Part shown: one piece after another, positions 1 to 6,533 of the stretch
How positions within the stretch are numbered: position 1 is the first letter of the stretch
Layout: each line of letters opens with the position of its first letter
NCBI GenBank assembly: GCA_011049745.1
Contig: DRHE01000095.1
Location: forward strand, 1 to 6,533
DNA from: Spirochaetales bacterium
GTDB lineage: Bacteria; Spirochaetota; Spirochaetia; SZUA-6; DRHE01
Direction: 5' to 3'
DNA: 6,533 bases
The notes under the pieces: model-generated
Database searches by the model: none
Told to the model about the DNA's origin: nothing
What the model saw: only the letters and a program-made list of their open reading frames with translations
Translations under genes and position numbers: made by a program

Positions 1-131
1 CTTTCCAGGACATCAAGATCTCTCCGGATGGTTATCTCGGATACGCCGAGCAGGCTACTCAAGTCGGTTACCTTGACAACACCTCTTTCCTGAAGCAGGC
101 GCTGAATTCGCTTCTGGCGATCAGCTGGAAT
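1..131 (-). pseudogene. DeoR-family regulator, N-terminal HTH fragment (inverted, partial)
   Basis: Read on the minus strand from 131 down to the window edge, 43 uninterrupted codons give a typical DeoR N-terminus. It begins IPADRQKRIQRLLQERG, followed by a helix-turn-helix with VTDLSSLLGVSEITIRRDL at its core. The RRDL recognition-helix ending and the PADRQ opening are hallmarks of the family (DNA-binding domain about 55 residues). The first codon is ATT where the family normally has Met-Ile-Pro or similar. No ATG/GTG/TTG and no Shine-Dalgarno precede it, because the DNA just upstream on this strand is the antisense of the sensor domain. The gene therefore has no visible start and continues out of the window. 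It most likely is the missing N-terminus of the sensor fragment on the plus strand, flipped by inversion or by a chimeric join. The alternative, a second divergent regulator that lost its start, is less economical. Confidence 0.8.
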
Positions 132-135
132 AAAA

Positions 136-687
136 CCGGAAGAGAAAGAGGCTATCGGGCGGGCAGCAGCAAAACTTGTGGAGGCCGGCGACACCCTGCT
201 GATAAACAGCGGCTCAACCACCAAACAGGTAATCCGCAGCCTTAAAATGAGTAATGTCAGGATTATTACCAGCAACCTGGGCGCGGTTATTGAAGCACAG
301 GAGAGTGAAATGGAGCTGATCCTTATCGGCGGATTACTGCGCAGCCAGTCGAATTCGTTGGTGGGGAGTCTGGCCACCCTTTCACTGCAGCAGGTATATG
401 GCAGTAAAGCATTTATCGGGGTTGACGGATTAAGTGTGAAATACGGGCTGACTACTCCCATACTGGAAGAAGCGGAAATAGCCCGTGAAATGATCAGGCG
501 CACACCTGGTCCGGTTATTGTGGTTGCTGATCACAGTAAATTGAGTGTGGTCTCTAATTTTATGAGCGCGCCGATTGACCAGGTGGATATGCTGGTAACT
601 GATCAGGGGCTGAGTAATGAGCTCCGGGAAGAGCTGGAAAAAATCGGTATAAAGGTTATAATCGCCGACCTTAATCCGCAGATATAA
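136..687 (+). CDS. DeoR-family regulator, C-terminal sensor domain only (HTH missing on this strand)
   Basis: The frame is homologous to DeoR proteins from about 136 (PEEKEAIGRAAAKLVEAGDT) to the stop at 685-687. It covers the effector-binding (DeoRC, ISOCOT-fold) domain. Family motifs are the INSGSTT loop near 205-225, which in DeoR proteins contacts the phosphate of a sugar-phosphate effector, GVDGLSVKYGLTTP at about 418-459, and VVADHSKL at about 520-543. A complete family member has about 250 residues; here only about 183 remain and the plus-strand frame is stopped at 91-93 and 103-105. The GTG at 178 opens the longest start-to-stop reading, but it lies inside the conserved domain and has no convincing Shine-Dalgarno, so it is probably not a natural start. 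Without the HTH the product could not bind DNA as a normal repressor. It sits immediately upstream of, and codirectional with, the transporter operon, the usual place for a local regulator. Confidence 0.85.
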   Translation, partial: PEEKEAIGRAAAKLVEAGDTLLINSGSTTKQVIRSLKMSNVRIITSNLGAVIEAQESEMELILIGGLLRSQSNSLVGSLATLSLQQVYGSKAFIGVDGLSVKYGLTTPILEEAEIAREMIRRTPGPVIVVADHSKLSVVSNFMSAPIDQVDMLVTDQGLSNELREELEKIGIKVIIADLNPQI

Positions 688-730
688 GATATATCTCACA
701 TCCTTTCTCTATTTTCCCCCATATAAATTC

Positions 731-759
731 TTGACGGATCATATTTGATCGTCTATGAT
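731..759 (+). promoter_or_regulatory. Sigma-70-type promoter of the ABC transporter operon
   Basis: A -35 box TTGACG (731-736) and a -10 box TATGAT (754-759) are separated by exactly 17 bases, close to the housekeeping consensus (5 of 6 and 5 of 6). Transcription would begin near 766, just before the AGGAGG ribosome binding site of the binding-protein gene, giving a very short leader. This makes the transporter separately transcribed from the regulator fragment. Confidence 0.7.
733..759. promoter_or_regulatory. Probable operator: overlapping inverted repeats inside the promoter
   Basis: GATCA-TATT-TGATC (737-750) is a perfect inverted repeat. It extends outward to GAC (733-735) and GTC (751-753) if one bulged base (736) is allowed. 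A second repeat, ATCATA (738-743) and TATGAT (754-759), overlaps it and includes the -10 box. The repeats fill the spacer between -35 and -10, so a protein bound here would block RNA polymerase. The neighbouring DeoR-type regulator is the natural candidate, but the link is inferred from position only; the sequence does not match a DeoR operator that I can name. Confidence 0.5.
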
Positions 760-768
760 TACTTATTA

Positions 769-774
769 AGGAGG
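769..774 (+). promoter_or_regulatory. Ribosome binding site fixing the start of the binding-protein gene
   Basis: AGGAGG at 769-774 lies 6 bases before ATG 781. This settles the start at 781, not the in-frame ATG at 745, which has no such site, lies within the promoter upstream of the expected transcription start and would place charged residues before the signal peptide. Confidence 0.85.
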
Positions 775-780
775 AAACTG

Positions 781-1977
781 ATGAAAAAGATTATTTTTAT
801 TCTGTTAAGTCTCTGTTTTTTGTTTTCTATTATCCTGATTGCGCCCGCAATCGGGCAGAAAGAAGTGGCAGAGGGTTTGAGTCCGGAGACAGTAGCCTGG
901 CTTAAATCCGCAGCTCTTGGGGATTATGCTTCTGAAACCTTTGATGAAGCTGCTCTCTACGAAGCAGCCAAGACGGAGGGAGAGGTAAGTGTCTACTCCT
1001 ACTCATCGAGGGTCTTCAAATTCGGGCCCACCTTTGAGGAAAAATATCCCGGTATCAAGGTAAAGGGCTTTGATATTGATTCTCCGGAAATGGTGACTAA
1101 GGTTTTAGCTGAACAGAACGCTAAAAACTATATGGCTGATGTTATTTTTATAAAGGATCCCTCAGTGGTAGTTCATGAGCTTCTCTCCAGGGGCCTGGTT
1201 TTCAATTATGTGCCGCCGGATTTAAAGGGATTAATTCAGAAAGATTACCGGGAGCCGCTGCTGGTTCATCATACAAGTGTCGATGCCCTTATCTATAATA
1301 ATGAAAAGTTGAGCGCGCCTCCGATTGATTCGCTCTGGGATCTAACCAAGGATGAATGGAGGAGCCGCTTTCTATTCCCCGATCCACAGAAGATGTCCGA
1401 ATTTGTTGAGGTTCTGGCTGCAATAATTGAGAATTCAGCGGGAATGGCTGCGGATTATAAGAGGGTATTCGGCAAGGATATCGTTTTAAGCCCGGGGGTG
1501 GAAAATGCCGGGTATGAATGGATCTTGAGAACTCTGAATAATGACTTAGTGATCATGGCCTCTACAAATGATGTATCCAATGCGATCGGTCTGTCCGATC
1601 AGGCAAATCCGCCGGTAGGGATGACTGCCTTTTCACGGTTAAGGGATAAAGGTAAAAATCCGAATCTGAAATTTGACGTTATGTATAACATAAAGCCGGT
1701 TATCGGGGTAGGAACCAAAGTGGTCATTTGTATCGCCAATCAGGCCAAACATCCGAATGCAGCCAAACTCATGATTCACTGGATGATGGGGGATGAAAAA
1801 GGCGGTAACGGCTATGCCCCATATTATGTGCTGGGCAACTTTACAGTACGTAATGATGTCACGCCTGTAAAAGGCTCCAGGAGCATGGAGGATCTTAACC
1901 TCTGGTTCGCGGACCCCGAGTTTGTCTGGGATGAAGGGCAGAAAATATTGGAATTCTGGGTTGCCAACCTGAAGTAA
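781..1977 (+). CDS. ABC transporter substrate-binding protein (family 1, FbpA/AfuA/PgtC-like)
   Basis: This 398-residue extracytoplasmic binding protein would capture the substrate and deliver it to the permease encoded next. Residues 1-25 form a signal peptide: MKK, then a long hydrophobic stretch ending in APAIGQ, with likely signal peptidase I cleavage near there. The only cysteine in it (residue 12) is not in a lipobox. The mature part has the SBP_bac_6-type layout: an opening strand EGEVSVYSYSS, FEEKYPGIKVKGFD, a central ALIYNNEKL segment, and the C-terminal HPNAAKLMIHWMM helix found in the iron-type family. Members bind ferric iron, but related proteins bind hexose phosphates, phosphonates or phosphoglycerate. 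I see no adjacent tyrosine pair in the middle of the protein where FbpA holds iron; a YY occurs only late (APYYVLGNF). Iron is therefore not supported, and the substrate is unknown. The gene ends in tandem stops (TAA TAA). Confidence 0.85.
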   Translation: MKKIIFILLSLCFLFSIILIAPAIGQKEVAEGLSPETVAWLKSAALGDYASETFDEAALYEAAKTEGEVSVYSYSSRVFKFGPTFEEKYPGIKVKGFDIDSPEMVTKVLAEQNAKNYMADVIFIKDPSVVVHELLSRGLVFNYVPPDLKGLIQKDYREPLLVHHTSVDALIYNNEKLSAPPIDSLWDLTKDEWRSRFLFPDPQKMSEFVEVLAAIIENSAGMAADYKRVFGKDIVLSPGVENAGYEWILRTLNNDLVIMASTNDVSNAIGLSDQANPPVGMTAFSRLRDKGKNPNLKFDVMYNIKPVIGVGTKVVICIANQAKHPNAAKLMIHWMMGDEKGGNGYAPYYVLGNFTVRNDVTPVKGSRSMEDLNLWFADPEFVWDEGQKILEFWVANLK

Positions 1978-2047
1978 TAAATAGCAACTCCTGGGACTTC
2001 ATACTCTGAAGAGATAAACCATTTTGGGGTAAATCAGCTATTCTAAT

Positions 2048-2079
2048 AACAGGAGGAGGGATAGATCTCTCCTCCTGTT
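2048..2079 (+). terminator. Strong intercistronic hairpin between binding protein and permease
   Basis: AACAGGAGGAG (2048-2058) pairs perfectly with CTCCTCCTGTT (2069-2079). Three further pairs (GGA with TCT, one of them G-U) close a four-base TAGA loop, giving a 14-bp stem. Only three T residues end the stem and follow it before the tract breaks (TTTACAA), so it is a weak or partial intrinsic terminator at best. Such hairpins after binding-protein genes commonly protect the upstream mRNA and lower permease expression, giving excess binding protein. The AGGAGGAGGG inside the stem resembles a ribosome binding site, but no start codon follows at a useful distance. Confidence 0.65.
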
Positions 2080-2106
2080 TACAATATTAAGAGAGCCAGG
2101 GAATAA

Positions 2107-3909
2107 GTGGTGCAGGGAGAAAAAGAAGATATCAGGATAAAGTTCAGCAGATTAAGGAATTATATCCGTCAGCCGCACATTATTATATCGCTGGTGCTCC
2201 TCCTGCTCCTGCTCTTTATTGTCTTGATACCCTTTATAAAGATGGTGAAGGATTCCTTTATCTGGCACTTTGGCGATACCCGGCTCTCGCGAAGCGCCCG
2301 TCCCGGGAGCTTCACTATTTTTCACTGGCGGAGAATACTTGCTTCTCAAATAACGCGTAATGTTCTGCTCCGGCCGCTGTTAAATTCACTTTCCACCGCG
2401 CTTGGAGTATCTTTTTTCGCTTTGATCATCGGCGCTCTCTTGGCCTGGCTATTAACCAGGACGGATCTTCCCTTTCGGCGGCTGCTGGCAACCCTGGCTG
2501 TACTGCCCTATGTCATTCCCTCCTATATCCATGCGTTGGCCTGGCTTACTCTTTTCAAGAATGACCGCATTGGCGGAGCTGTCGGGATTTTTCAATATTT
2601 CTTTAATTTAAGCCCTCCCAACTGGCTTTCCTACGGCTATTTCCCCATTGTATTGACCCTCTCCATACATTACTTTCCCTATACATTTCTGCTGTTATCG
2701 GCTTCTCTTTCCAGCATTGACTCCCGTCTTGAGGAATCGGGAGAGATACTGGGTGCCACACGATCATATATATTACGCAGGATTACCTTCCCCCTGGTTA
2801 TTCCGGCCCTTTTGTCCAGTTTTATTCTCACCTTTTCTAGGGCTCTGGGTATATTCGGCACCCCTTACTTTCTGGGTTCACCGGTAAGATTTTTTACTCT
2901 TTCCACCCAGATATATTCCAGTATAACCAATCGAATACCTGCGGCAGGTTATATACTGGCGCTCATGCTGGTCGCTATCTCTTCTACAGTGATTTATATA
3001 AACCAGAGAATTATTGGCCGCCGGAAAGGTTTTGTGACGATTGCCGGCAAGGGATTCAGGGCGTCTTTAACCCCTTTAGGCAGATTGAAGTATCCCGCCC
3101 TGTTTCTGGTGGTAGCACTGCTTATAATTTCAGTACTGTTGCCCCTTGTTCTGCTTGTCTGGCAGACCCTTACCCTTTATCCCGGTGATTATTCTCTTGA
3201 TAATCTCTCCCTTCTCTTCTGGATTGGCAGGGGGAATACGGAGTTTGCCGAAGGCGAGGCCGGGATATTGAGGAATCCGGCTATTATAAAGGCTGCCTGG
3301 AACTCTATTAAGCTGGCATTAACAGCGGCAGTACTCTCCGGTTTCATAGGGATTTTTATTGGATATGCAGTGGTTAAAGGCAGGAATACAAAGCTGGCCA
3401 ATAGCGTGGAACAGATATTTTTTCTTCCCTATCTTGTTCCCGGTATTGCGTTCGGCGCCCTGTACCTTTCACTTTTTACCCACCGCATCGGACCCATACC
3501 GGCGCTCTATGGAACTTTCTTTTTAGTGGCTCTGGTCTGTATTGCCAAGAATCTTCCCTTTACCGGCAGGGCGGGTATAACCGCGATGCTGCAGATTGGC
3601 AACGAGCTGGAAGAGGCCTCAGAGATAGCCGGTGCCCGCTGGTCTACACGCTTTCGCAGGATCATCCTGCCCCTATCCATACGCGGGGCGCTGGCGGGCT
3701 TTATATTAGTCTTTATAACTGTAATGAGGGAACTTTCCCTGATTATACTACTGGTAACTCCTAAAACCAGGACCCTGACCACAATGACCTTCCGTTATCA
3801 GGAGCAGGGTTACACTCAGTTTTCCAGTGCAATAAGTGTTTTAATAGTACTGATTGTGGTGGTCGGAGAGCTGATTTCCAGGAAAATGGGCAAGAAGAGT
3901 ATTATTTAA
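2107..3909 (+). CDS. ABC transporter permease, fused two-domain (FbpB/ThiP-like)
   Basis: This 600-residue inner-membrane protein carries two BPD_transp_1 permease units in tandem, so one chain may form the whole channel. It starts with a cytoplasmic basic stretch and a first membrane helix at about 25-45 (IISLVLLLLLLFIVLIPF). The first unit spans about 90-300 with its ATPase-contacting EAA loop at about 209-238 (EESGEILGATRSY...FPLVIPALLSS). A linker and a membrane helix near 330-350 follow, then the second unit at about 395-590 with its EAA loop at about 502-531 (EEASEIAGARWSTRFRRIIL). Length and duplicated architecture match ferric and thiamine permeases of the FbpB/SfuB/ThiP group. Two GTG codons stand in tandem at 2107 and 2110; AGGGAA at 2098-2103 is better spaced for the second, so the start is uncertain by one codon. 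It is 129 bases after the binding-protein gene and 27 before the ATPase gene. Confidence 0.92.
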   Translation: MVQGEKEDIRIKFSRLRNYIRQPHIIISLVLLLLLLFIVLIPFIKMVKDSFIWHFGDTRLSRSARPGSFTIFHWRRILASQITRNVLLRPLLNSLSTALGVSFFALIIGALLAWLLTRTDLPFRRLLATLAVLPYVIPSYIHALAWLTLFKNDRIGGAVGIFQYFFNLSPPNWLSYGYFPIVLTLSIHYFPYTFLLLSASLSSIDSRLEESGEILGATRSYILRRITFPLVIPALLSSFILTFSRALGIFGTPYFLGSPVRFFTLSTQIYSSITNRIPAAGYILALMLVAISSTVIYINQRIIGRRKGFVTIAGKGFRASLTPLGRLKYPALFLVVALLIISVLLPLVLLVWQTLTLYPGDYSLDNLSLLFWIGRGNTEFAEGEAGILRNPAIIKAAWNSIKLALTAAVLSGFIGIFIGYAVVKGRNTKLANSVEQIFFLPYLVPGIAFGALYLSLFTHRIGPIPALYGTFFLVALVCIAKNLPFTGRAGITAMLQIGNELEEASEIAGARWSTRFRRIILPLSIRGALAGFILVFITVMRELSLIILLVTPKTRTLTTMTFRYQEQGYTQFSSAISVLIVLIVVVGELISRKMGKKSII

Positions 3910-3936
3910 ATATGCTGTTTAAAGAGAGGATTTTGC

Positions 3937-5046
3937 ATGGCGGTTGTTGAAGTCAGAAATCTGACCAAGGTCTTTGGCGAAGTTTTAGCTGTTGATGGCA
4001 TTTCCTTTGCAGTGGAGGAATCGAACTTTCTTATACTGCTGGGGCCATCCGGCTGTGGTAAGACAACTATTTTAAGAATGATCGCCGGACTGGAAATTCC
4101 TACTTCAGGGGAAATCTATATAAAGGATCGTCTTGTTTTTTCCAGCAAAAAGGGAATATTCGTGCCGGCCCGGAAAAGGGGGGTCGGTCTTGTATTCCAG
4201 AGTTATGCCCTATGGCCCCACATGACGGTTTTTGAGAATATCGCCTTTGGTCTGAAGGTAAAACGTCTTAAACCTTCGGATATAAAGGAAAAGGTAGAAA
4301 AGGTGCTCGATTTTATGAAGCTTGAGGGAATGACCAACAGATATCCTCAAGAGATGAGCGGCGGGCAGCAGCAGCGGGTGGCTTTAGCCAGGATGCTGGT
4401 AAGCGCGCCTGATATTTTCCTGATGGATGAACCGCTGTCCAATCTCGATGCCAAGCTGCGTCTGGAAATGAGGGCTGATATCAAGAACCTTCACCGGGAG
4501 ACCGGGGCAACTACAGTATATGTCACCCATGACCAGGTTGAGGGGATGACCATGGCCAGTGAGATAGCGGTTCTCAATCATGGCATTATTGAACAGTTGG
4601 AACAGCCAAAAAAGGTTTATCATCTGCCCTCCTCCCTCTTTGTAGCCGACTTTATCGGCAGCCCGACAATCAATAAAATAGAAGGAATTACGGCTCTTGC
4701 GGAAGAAGGTGAGGGAATTGTTGAGATCGAGTTCGAGAACATGTTGTTGGCCACCTCTTACAGGCAGATTTCTCCAGGCCGAAAGGTGATGGCGGCAATC
4801 AGACCTGAAAATATTTCTCTGGTTACGGCTCCCGGAAAGAATACTCTGCAGGTGCAGGTAAATACTGTTCTGCCTGCCGGAGCGGAGACTATTCTTCAGG
4901 TAAGTCACAGCAAACTGCAGTTCAATATTCTGCTGACCAGAGAAACCGATCTTGAGGTGGGGGAGAAGATAAATATTTACCTTCCACCTGAAAAAATCCT
5001 GATCTTTGACCGGGAGTCAGCGGAACTTCTTCCCAATATATCTTAA
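3937..5046 (+). CDS. ABC transporter ATP-binding protein (FbpC/PotA-type, with TOBE domain)
   Basis: This 369-residue ATPase would power the importer from the cytoplasmic face as a dimer docked on the permease EAA loops. All nucleotide-binding motifs are intact: Walker A GPSGCGKTT (36-44), Q-loop VFQSYALWPHM with Gln 88, signature SGGQQQR starting at 141, Walker B FLMDEP with Asp 164 and catalytic Glu 165, D-loop SNLD, and H-loop His 198 in VTHDQ. The ALWPHM Q-loop and the EQPKKVYHLPSSLFVADFIGSP stretch near 220-250 are typical of the CUT1/FbpC/PotA class. Residues from about 280 onward (AAIRPENISLV) form the TOBE regulatory/oligosaccharide-binding-like domain. Start: ATG 3937 is preceded by GAGAGG at 3924-3929, 7 bases away. 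It closes the three-gene transporter operon and appears fully functional. Confidence 0.95.
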   Translation: MAVVEVRNLTKVFGEVLAVDGISFAVEESNFLILLGPSGCGKTTILRMIAGLEIPTSGEIYIKDRLVFSSKKGIFVPARKRGVGLVFQSYALWPHMTVFENIAFGLKVKRLKPSDIKEKVEKVLDFMKLEGMTNRYPQEMSGGQQQRVALARMLVSAPDIFLMDEPLSNLDAKLRLEMRADIKNLHRETGATTVYVTHDQVEGMTMASEIAVLNHGIIEQLEQPKKVYHLPSSLFVADFIGSPTINKIEGITALAEEGEGIVEIEFENMLLATSYRQISPGRKVMAAIRPENISLVTAPGKNTLQVQVNTVLPAGAETILQVSHSKLQFNILLTRETDLEVGEKINIYLPPEKILIFDRESAELLPNIS

Positions 5047-5160
5047 AGAGACCCAGTGTATCATCTAAAATTCAATGCGAAACCGCCCTTGAAAATAAAG
5101 CACTTTGCCAATATGCTGTTGCTTTAAGCTGGTATCGAGCATTGAGATATAAGCGCTGAC
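5047..5160. other. Intergenic stretch between ATPase and phosphoribosyltransferase genes
   Basis: These 114 AT-leaning bases separate the transporter from the next gene. I see no convincing terminator hairpin with a T-tract. The only supportable element is the promoter-like pair at 5089-5117. The last 20 bases before the ATG at 5161 lack a clear Shine-Dalgarno (only a GAGA-like purine patch near 5144). Confidence 0.5.
5089..5117 (+). promoter_or_regulatory. Possible promoter of the phosphoribosyltransferase gene
   Basis: TTGAAA (5089-5094; 5 of 6 to the -35 consensus) is followed after 17 bases by TATGCT (5112-5117; 4 of 6 to the -10 consensus). Transcription would start near 5124, leaving a leader of about 37 bases. 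No strong operator-like repeat is visible here, so this gene may be expressed independently of the transporter promoter. Confidence 0.45.
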
Positions 5161-5667
5161 ATGGAAAAATATTATTTAAGCTATAGTGAAATACATAAAA
5201 CCCTAAAAAAACTTGCCGGCCAAATTAAGGCCTCCGGCTTTGAGTTTGATGTAATTGTGGCAATCGGGACCGGGGGTTTTATCCCGGCCAGGATACTTAA
5301 GACCTTTTTAAATAAGCCGATACTCACCGTTGGTATTACCTATTACGATTCCAATAACCAGCCCATGGAAGCGCCCAGGAAGGTGCAGTGGATAGATGAG
5401 GTGGAGAAACGCCTTACCGGAAAGAAAATACTGCTGGTTGATGAGGTTGATGATTCCCGGGTCACCCTGGAATACTGTCTCAGGGAACTGCTCTCCTATA
5501 ATCCTGAAAAGATAGGTGTTGCTGTTCTGCACAACAAACGTAAAGAAAAGAGGGGCACACTGCCTGAGCAGGTGGAACACTATTTTGTGGGCAGAGAGCT
5601 GGCCGACAGATGGATATGTTATCCCTGGGATGCCGAAGATATCGATCTCCACGAGAGCATGGTTTAG
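5161..5667 (+). CDS. Phosphoribosyltransferase, yeast Hpt1-like (COG2236)
   Basis: This 168-residue type I phosphoribosyltransferase would use PRPP to convert a nucleobase, probably a purine, to its nucleotide in the cytoplasm. The opening YYLSYSEIHKTL resembles the N-terminus of yeast hypoxanthine phosphoribosyltransferase, followed by the VIVAIGTGGFIPARIL strand-turn (about residues 31-47). The PRPP-binding signature LLVDEVDDSRVTLEYC lies at about 91-106, with the adjacent acidic residues that hold the ribose hydroxyls. Near the C-terminus YFVGRELADRWICYPWD (about 141-157) matches the conserved WICYPW ending of this subgroup. Base specificity cannot be read from sequence. ATG 5161 is the only sensible start: the frame is closed by TGA at 5143-5145 and the next Met is internal. 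It looks intact, although it lies between a complete transporter and two broken genes; its role in the locus is unknown. Confidence 0.85.
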   Translation: MEKYYLSYSEIHKTLKKLAGQIKASGFEFDVIVAIGTGGFIPARILKTFLNKPILTVGITYYDSNNQPMEAPRKVQWIDEVEKRLTGKKILLVDEVDDSRVTLEYCLRELLSYNPEKIGVAVLHNKRKEKRGTLPEQVEHYFVGRELADRWICYPWDAEDIDLHESMV

Positions 5668-5693
5668 ATTCTGCGATAAAGGATTACCACCAC

Positions 5694-5731
5694 TATAATT
5701 TTATGATATTAAAACTGGAGGAGATTTTTTA
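5694..5731 (+). promoter_or_regulatory. Perfect -10 box and strong ribosome binding site before the enolase remnant
   Basis: TATAAT at 5694-5699 is a perfect -10 hexamer, but the -35 position 17 bases upstream reads CTGCGA (3 of 6), so a promoter is only possible. GGAGGAG at 5717-5723 is a strong Shine-Dalgarno 8 bases before GTG 5732 and fixes that start. Confidence 0.45.
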
Positions 5732-6175
5732 GTGAGTGATAAAATCATTTCTAAAGTTTACGCCAGAGAAATTATCGACTGCCGGGGATGGCCCACCGTG
5801 CAGGCCGATGTGTGGGTCAATGGTCAATTAATGGGCCGCGCCGACGTACCGGCAGGCAGGTCCACCGGCAGCAAAGAGGCCCATGTGTTGATTGACGGCG
5901 ATAAAAACCGCTACCGCAGCCTTGGTGTCCTGAAAGCGGTGGAAAATGTCAACAAAGAGATCGGGCCCCTTCTGACCGGCATGGAGGTCACCGATCAACG
6001 CAAAATCGATATGCCGGTAAGAGGCGAAAGAACCCCCAAACCCAACCGGCTGCTGCAGATCGAAGAGGAGCTGGGATCTACCGCGATCTATGCGGGCCGC
6101 AATTTTGCCCGGCCGGCATTTAGAAAGGTTCTTTTACCCTCTGTTCTCATCAGGAAGATAGATGGCTTACATTAA
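5732..6175 (+). pseudogene. Enolase paralogue with large internal deletion
   Basis: An intact enolase (about 420-430 residues) converts 2-phosphoglycerate to phosphoenolpyruvate. Here only 147 codons remain. Residues 1-93 match the N-terminal domain: VYAREIIDCRGWPTV, VPAGRSTGSKEA, DGDKNRYRSLGVLKAVENVN, GMEVTDQRKID. From residue 94 the chain is the extreme C-terminus: MPVRGERTPKPNRLLQIEEELG, then IYAGRNFARP. About 290-300 residues are missing in frame, including the entire catalytic barrel with its metal-binding acids, the catalytic Glu and both catalytic Lys; only the loop serine of GRST remains. The last 18 or so residues (after ARP) resemble no enolase ending I know, and a TAG lies one frame over at 6120-6122, hinting at another small indel. 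DCRGWPT and PAGRST differ from the usual DSRGNPT and PSGAST, so this was a divergent paralogue. GC of 5761-5880 is about 63%, above the upstream genes. The product cannot be an active enolase. Confidence 0.85.
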
Positions 6176-6533
6176 AAACAGCGATCAGCTTTTATCCCAC
6201 GGCAACATCCCGGCCCGCCGCATGGCACTGGAAATTATCGAGCATGCCCTGGTCGCTGCCGACCCATACCGGGCCGTCCGCCGGTTGGTCGGCCTTAGGG
6301 GCGATGTCCTTACGGTCGGTGCCCTGCGCTTTGATCTGACGAACCGAAAGCAGCATGATTTCATAATCCTGCCGGCCCACACGGTTTGTGAGGCGGCAGC
6401 AAAAAAGCCGCTGACTTAGGTATGAAGACCATGATACTATCAACAATGCTGGAAGGTGAGAGCAAAGAACTGGGCAGGACCTTTGCTTCTATTACCGGGG
6501 AAATCGTACGGAATGGCCGACCGTTGAAGCCTC
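6162..6533 (+). pseudogene. Glycerate 2-kinase (DUF4147/MOFRL), internally deleted and frameshifted, partial
   Basis: Glycerate 2-kinase phosphorylates D-glycerate to 2-phosphoglycerate using ATP. The start is ATG 6162 with AGGAAG at 6152-6157, overlapping the enolase remnant by 14 bases. Residues 1 to about 63 match the N-terminus of DUF4147 kinases (ARRMALEIIEHALVAADPYRAV, then LTVGALRFDLTNRK). At the point where family members continue into the glycine-rich VLGAGKA segment, the chain jumps near 6351-6362 to a later region, FIILPAHTVCEAAAKK, roughly 200 residues downstream in homologues. A run of six A (6401-6406) then shifts the frame into a TAG at 6417-6419. With one more A the reading continues as AADLGMKTMILSTMLEGES, then ELGRTFASITGEIVRNGRPL to the window end, the conserved segment preceding the MOFRL domain. 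The catalytic centre is missing, so the copy is inactive unless the sequence is misassembled. The gene runs off the window. Confidence 0.8.

Follow-up and report, generated by a model that had tools for sequence, protein, structure and literature searches.

A split DeoR-family regulator at the end of a Spirochaetales contig, most likely a fold-back chimera from DNA amplification

Organization of the locus

The window analysed here is the whole of a 6533-base contig (C95) of a Spirochaetales assembly (G000), which comprises 2.4 Mb in 466 contigs and is 73% complete. At its left end lies a DeoR/GlpR-type regulator whose two domains, HTH_DeoR and DeoRC, are present solely as two opposed pieces. 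The coordinates of these pieces, of the join between them and of the neighbouring genes are collected in Table 1.

Table 1. Features of the window, with positions numbered from the left end of the contig
Feature	Position	Strand	Remarks
Regulator, N-terminal part (HTH); 46 residues, from residue 3 onwards	1..140	-	Runs leftward from 140; truncated by the contig end at 1
Junction, most likely chimeric; GGA common to both sides (3-nt overlap)	138..140	.	Overlap of the two alignments to L024, a stretch of the related genome G001
Regulator, C-terminal sensor domain	138..687	+	Native stop at 685-687
Transporter operon: solute-binding protein, 600-aa permease with two BPD_transp_1 stretches, ATPase	781-5046	+	Pfam
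Shortened enolase, 147 aa	5732-6175	+	Enolase_N profile 1-89 of 131 fused in frame to Enolase_C 242-294 of 296

A first-pass annotation, made from the sequence alone, had described a minus-strand HTH and a plus-strand sensor that meet head-on and are complementary parts of one regulator. The arrangement is borne out by Pfam matches that exceed their cut-offs for both domains: on the minus strand, HTH_DeoR matches 3-131 with 40.6 bits (cut-off 21), and on the plus strand DeoRC matches from 136 with 141.1 bits (cut-off 31.8). The complementarity is likewise upheld, in that the two halves align to a single intact gene of G001, a genome of the same genus, and both are identical to one public protein, P0002.

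The intact regulator in relatives

A protein search found 394 relatives, and the best 120 of the 394 were listed. Among those listed, 23 proteins share at least 93% identity with the query, and 21 of the 23 (P0002 to P0022) are full-length and intact, with 262-263 aa arranged as HTH, then linker, then sensor. The remaining two are the window itself (P0001) and a 125-aa piece encoded on a 720-base contig (P0062). Among these 23 listed proteins the window is the only split form, and the 21 full-length relatives include no inverted form, every one of them (21/21) being in native order.

The closest of the intact proteins, P0002, matches the HTH piece of the window at 46/46 residues and the sensor at 100% identity over 99% of the query. 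It carries the linker between the two and has HTH_DeoR followed by DeoRC in a single protein by Pfam. The full-length relatives are like DeoR/GlpR regulators in domain order and length, with the difference that P0002 falls below the cut-off of every named NCBIfam subgroup (the best being AgaR, at 189.3 of 260 bits).

In G001, the regulator gene is intact, encodes 263 aa from a GTG start, and lies at 6908-6117 on the minus strand of L024; the sensor protein of the window is 96% identical to its counterpart there. When the window is aligned to this stretch, positions 1-140 fall on L024 6760-6899 of the plus strand (91% DNA identity over 140 nt), and positions 138-5031 fall on L024 6666-1775 of the minus strand (94%), followed by 5146-5663 in the same order as in L024. 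The two breakpoints of the window are about 230 nt apart in the G001 gene and on opposite strands, and the window lacks the 93-nt linker of that gene (L024 6667-6759).

The junction and the contig end

The alignments revise several details of the join as it had been annotated. The HTH half had been taken to start at 131, but it reaches to about 140, with S-G-F codons ahead of I-P-A-D. The start codon had been proposed as the breakpoint, but the HTH side retains codons from S3 onward, which places the break in codon 3, with the GTG start of G001 two codons further out. Nor do the halves merely abut without overlap, because GGA at 138-140 is common to both. Finally, one breakpoint had been placed in the linker before a PEEK motif. 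Printing the junction against both native stretches reveals that the proline of PEEK was created by the join; this residue is absent from the G001 protein and from 21/21 full-length relatives, most of which have R-E-E-K where the window reads PEEK.

The contig ends on the left 140 nt beyond the junction, 93 nt short of the point at which a fold-back is predicted to repeat the sensor. A repeat search of the window found no inverted repeat pair spanning the junction, and the left tail does not extend far enough to hold a fold-back arm. With 140 nt, this tail falls short of the loop length of about 230 nt, so the left side by itself is equally compatible with an inversion. Searches of the assembly located the HTH piece in C95 only and gave six sensor matches, one of them in the window itself; for the linker and some 3 kb upstream of the regulator gene, G000 gave no match (E <= 0.001).

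Fold-back ends elsewhere in the assembly

How common are such ends in this assembly? Inverted arms, defined as self-matches in inverted orientation (25 nt or longer, 90% identity or more), were counted in 60 of the other 465 contigs (C1-C40, C85-C94 and C96-C105). An inverted arm was present at a contig end in 11 of the 60, a count that contig ends of the window's own type, with a tail shorter than the loop, escape. None was present in 20 contigs of G002 or in 20 of G005, two relatives with similarly fragmented assemblies, and the difference between 11/60 and 0/40 gives a one-sided Fisher p of 0.0024. One of the 11 contigs, L112, has several short arms that may be true repeats; excluding it leaves 10/60 (p = 0.0044). 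The 21 stretches of G001 had no inverted arm at an end either (0/21), but not all of them reach contig ends, several being trimmed at 20 kb or internal to a contig, so that G001 is a weak control for ends. Internal inverted arms were found in 3/60 contigs of G000 (L110, L112 and L118), in none of G002 or G005, and in 3/21 stretches of G001, where they are short palindromes of 29-41 nt.

For six G000 contigs that carry inverted arms, a placement in G001 was sought. Two of them reproduce the inverted junction on the related genome: L062 aligns over 3-82 on the plus strand and over 75-2000 on the minus strand, with an 8-nt overlap, and L107 aligns over 1-94 on the plus strand and from 88 onwards on the minus strand, with a 7-nt overlap. 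L061 is inverted in the same way, at 68-76% identity, and a second place in G001 resembles it. The fold-backs of the other three had no placement in G001, where L118 gave scattered matches only (mostly at 66-79% identity), the fold-back of L055 was unmatched, and L117 had zero matches. A comparison for strand switches was also run with 61 contigs of G000 (310 kb) against 338 kb of G001. Five contigs matched (at least 60 nt at 80% identity or more), and the window alone among the five switches strand; with one switch in five matched contigs, this comparison says little by itself.

Two further observations concern the form of these arms. The starts of three contigs (L043 1-787, L058 1-242 and L100 1-225, in C4, C19 and C85 of G000) are near-complete palindromes, at 90-95% throughout, and belong to the surplus of fold-back ends that G000 shows. 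In addition, L118 (C104) contains at 865-1251 an internal perfect inverted repeat with 136-nt arms and a 115-nt loop, which may be a fold-back traversed by the assembler or a true repeat.

A fold-back chimera as the best explanation

The existence of intact copies of the same protein sequence elsewhere, together with the similar fold-back ends on other contigs, makes a laboratory copying artefact the most likely explanation, and not a genetic switch. We conclude, with a probability of about 0.93, that the split regulator is a fold-back (inverted) chimera that arose when DNA was amplified for sequencing and was not made by the cell. The chemistry would be that of multiple displacement amplification (MDA), and the gene in the sampled cell would be intact. 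In the proposed series of steps, a growing strand on the regulator gene would be displaced, and its displaced 3' end would pair with the opposite strand some 230 nt away in the same gene, TCC annealing to GGA over three bases, after which synthesis would continue in the reverse direction. The assembler would then have extended the contig some 140 nt beyond the join, halting before the fold-back re-enters the sensor, so that the fold-back would also be the cause of the contig ending where it does.

Chimeras of this kind have been described for MDA with phi29 polymerase. As reported by Lasken and Stockwell (2007, PMC1855051), 85% of 475 chimeras were inverted with an intervening deletion, 83% of the inverted ones joined stretches less than 10 kb apart, joins had at least two complementary bases in 76.8% of cases (and up to 21), and chimeras arose at a rate of about one per 22 kb. 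The window resembles these products in joining opposite-strand stretches about 230 nt apart with loss of the 93-nt linker. The bases shared at the joins are likewise few (3 nt in the window, 8 in L062 and 7 in L107) and within the range of 2-21 nt, and many joins occur in one assembly (11/60 contigs, compared to 0/40 in G002 and G005). A difference is that the joins are seen here in contigs, whereas the published ones were seen in reads; that the sample was amplified is something we infer. Points against a chimera are the shortness of the 3-nt overlap at the junction, the three fold-back contigs without a placement in G001, and the single strand switch among the five contigs matched to G001.

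Alternative explanations

Could the inverted arrangement exist in the cell? The first-pass annotation had left the choice between an on/off inversion and an artefact, and only the second part has held up, on the strength of the intact identical proteins, the 3-nt overlap, a contig that stops 140 nt beyond the join and the surplus of fold-back ends in the assembly. An on/off switch would be a phase-variable inverton, in which a site-specific recombinase flips an HTH-linker segment of about 230 bp and thereby switches the regulator off. Some features of the window would fit, in that the inverted HTH directly against the sensor is the geometry of one end of an inversion, the inverted stretch is inside a coding region (as in intragenic inversions) and its product would be off, and the regulator gene adjoins a transporter operon that is a possible target of its control. 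However, invertons are described as having flanking inverted repeats of 10-40 nt (PMC11892184), and the longest exact inverted repeat between the breakpoints is 5 nt, a length matched or exceeded in 426/500 shuffles. This search covered the 61-nt neighbourhoods of both breakpoints in the G001 gene, the far side of G000's own gene being missing from the assembly. Moreover, Pfam identified no recombinase in the eight window proteins scanned, and none was recognized by eye among the reading frames of the G001 neighbourhood; the repeats and recombinase that the annotation had associated with a switch were thus not found in these places. Only a single junction is seen, the second orientation is not, and the full-length relatives include no inverted form. 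We consider an inverton very improbable. Hardly more credible is a genuine inversion of about 230 bp in the DeoR-family gene, made by near-repeatless recombination, that would disable the regulator of the ABC-transporter operon next to it.

A one-off event in the strain would be either a real inversion or a template-switch mutation that broke the regulator. Microhomology-mediated template switching in cells is expected to leave the same 3-nt joint. Such an event is nonetheless highly unlikely, because the contig ends 140 nt beyond the join, 93 nt too early to reach the other breakpoint that would be expected, and because contig ends of this sort are common in G000 and absent from the 40 contigs of two relatives. 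A chance head-on meeting of two different DeoR-family genes is more remote still, to the point of being negligible. The six sensor matches in G000, including that of the window, would allow for it, but both halves are identical to the one intact protein P0002 and map to a single gene in G001, and this two-gene reading is contradicted on both counts.

A fold-back introduced by library preparation or by the assembler, instead of by MDA, is unlikely but deserves some weight, since inverted-repeat chimeras from ligation libraries have been reported (PMC13141652). Against this origin, such ends are in excess specifically in G000, and a genome that is 73% complete in 466 contigs would suit single-cell amplification, although this evidence is suggestive only. 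A fold-back from library preparation would look the same, and the verdict that no cellular feature is involved would stand.

A fold-back chimera would mean that the split DeoR/GlpR-type regulator beside the ABC-transporter operon is, most likely, no real genetic feature. The regulator itself is ordinary and intact in relatives, and the split carries hardly any biological weight. What it offers is a warning: when a genome is fragmented and apparently amplified, a gene split where a contig ends can look like a phase-variation switch. A quick test is to count the contig ends of the assembly that carry inverted arms and to compare the number with that in relatives.

Neighbouring genes

The transporter operon is next to the regulator in G001 as well, and its NCBIfam matches fall under their cut-offs (for example PhnU2, 164.9 of 593.25 bits, and UgpC, 374.8 of 432). 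Synteny with G001 ends after a phosphoribosyltransferase gene, and within 5600-6533 only 5605-5663 matched. Two plus-strand reading frames near the right end of the window, 6162-6419 and 6407-6532, had no Pfam match at E <= 1; they may be remnants of a frameshifted glycerate 2-kinase gene. The enolase gene lacks an internal segment, and this loss is probably genuine, as opposed to a further chimera, because the same-length form exists in public data: a 147-aa protein (P0121), encoded on a 1267-base contig, is 97% identical to the shortened enolase over its whole length.
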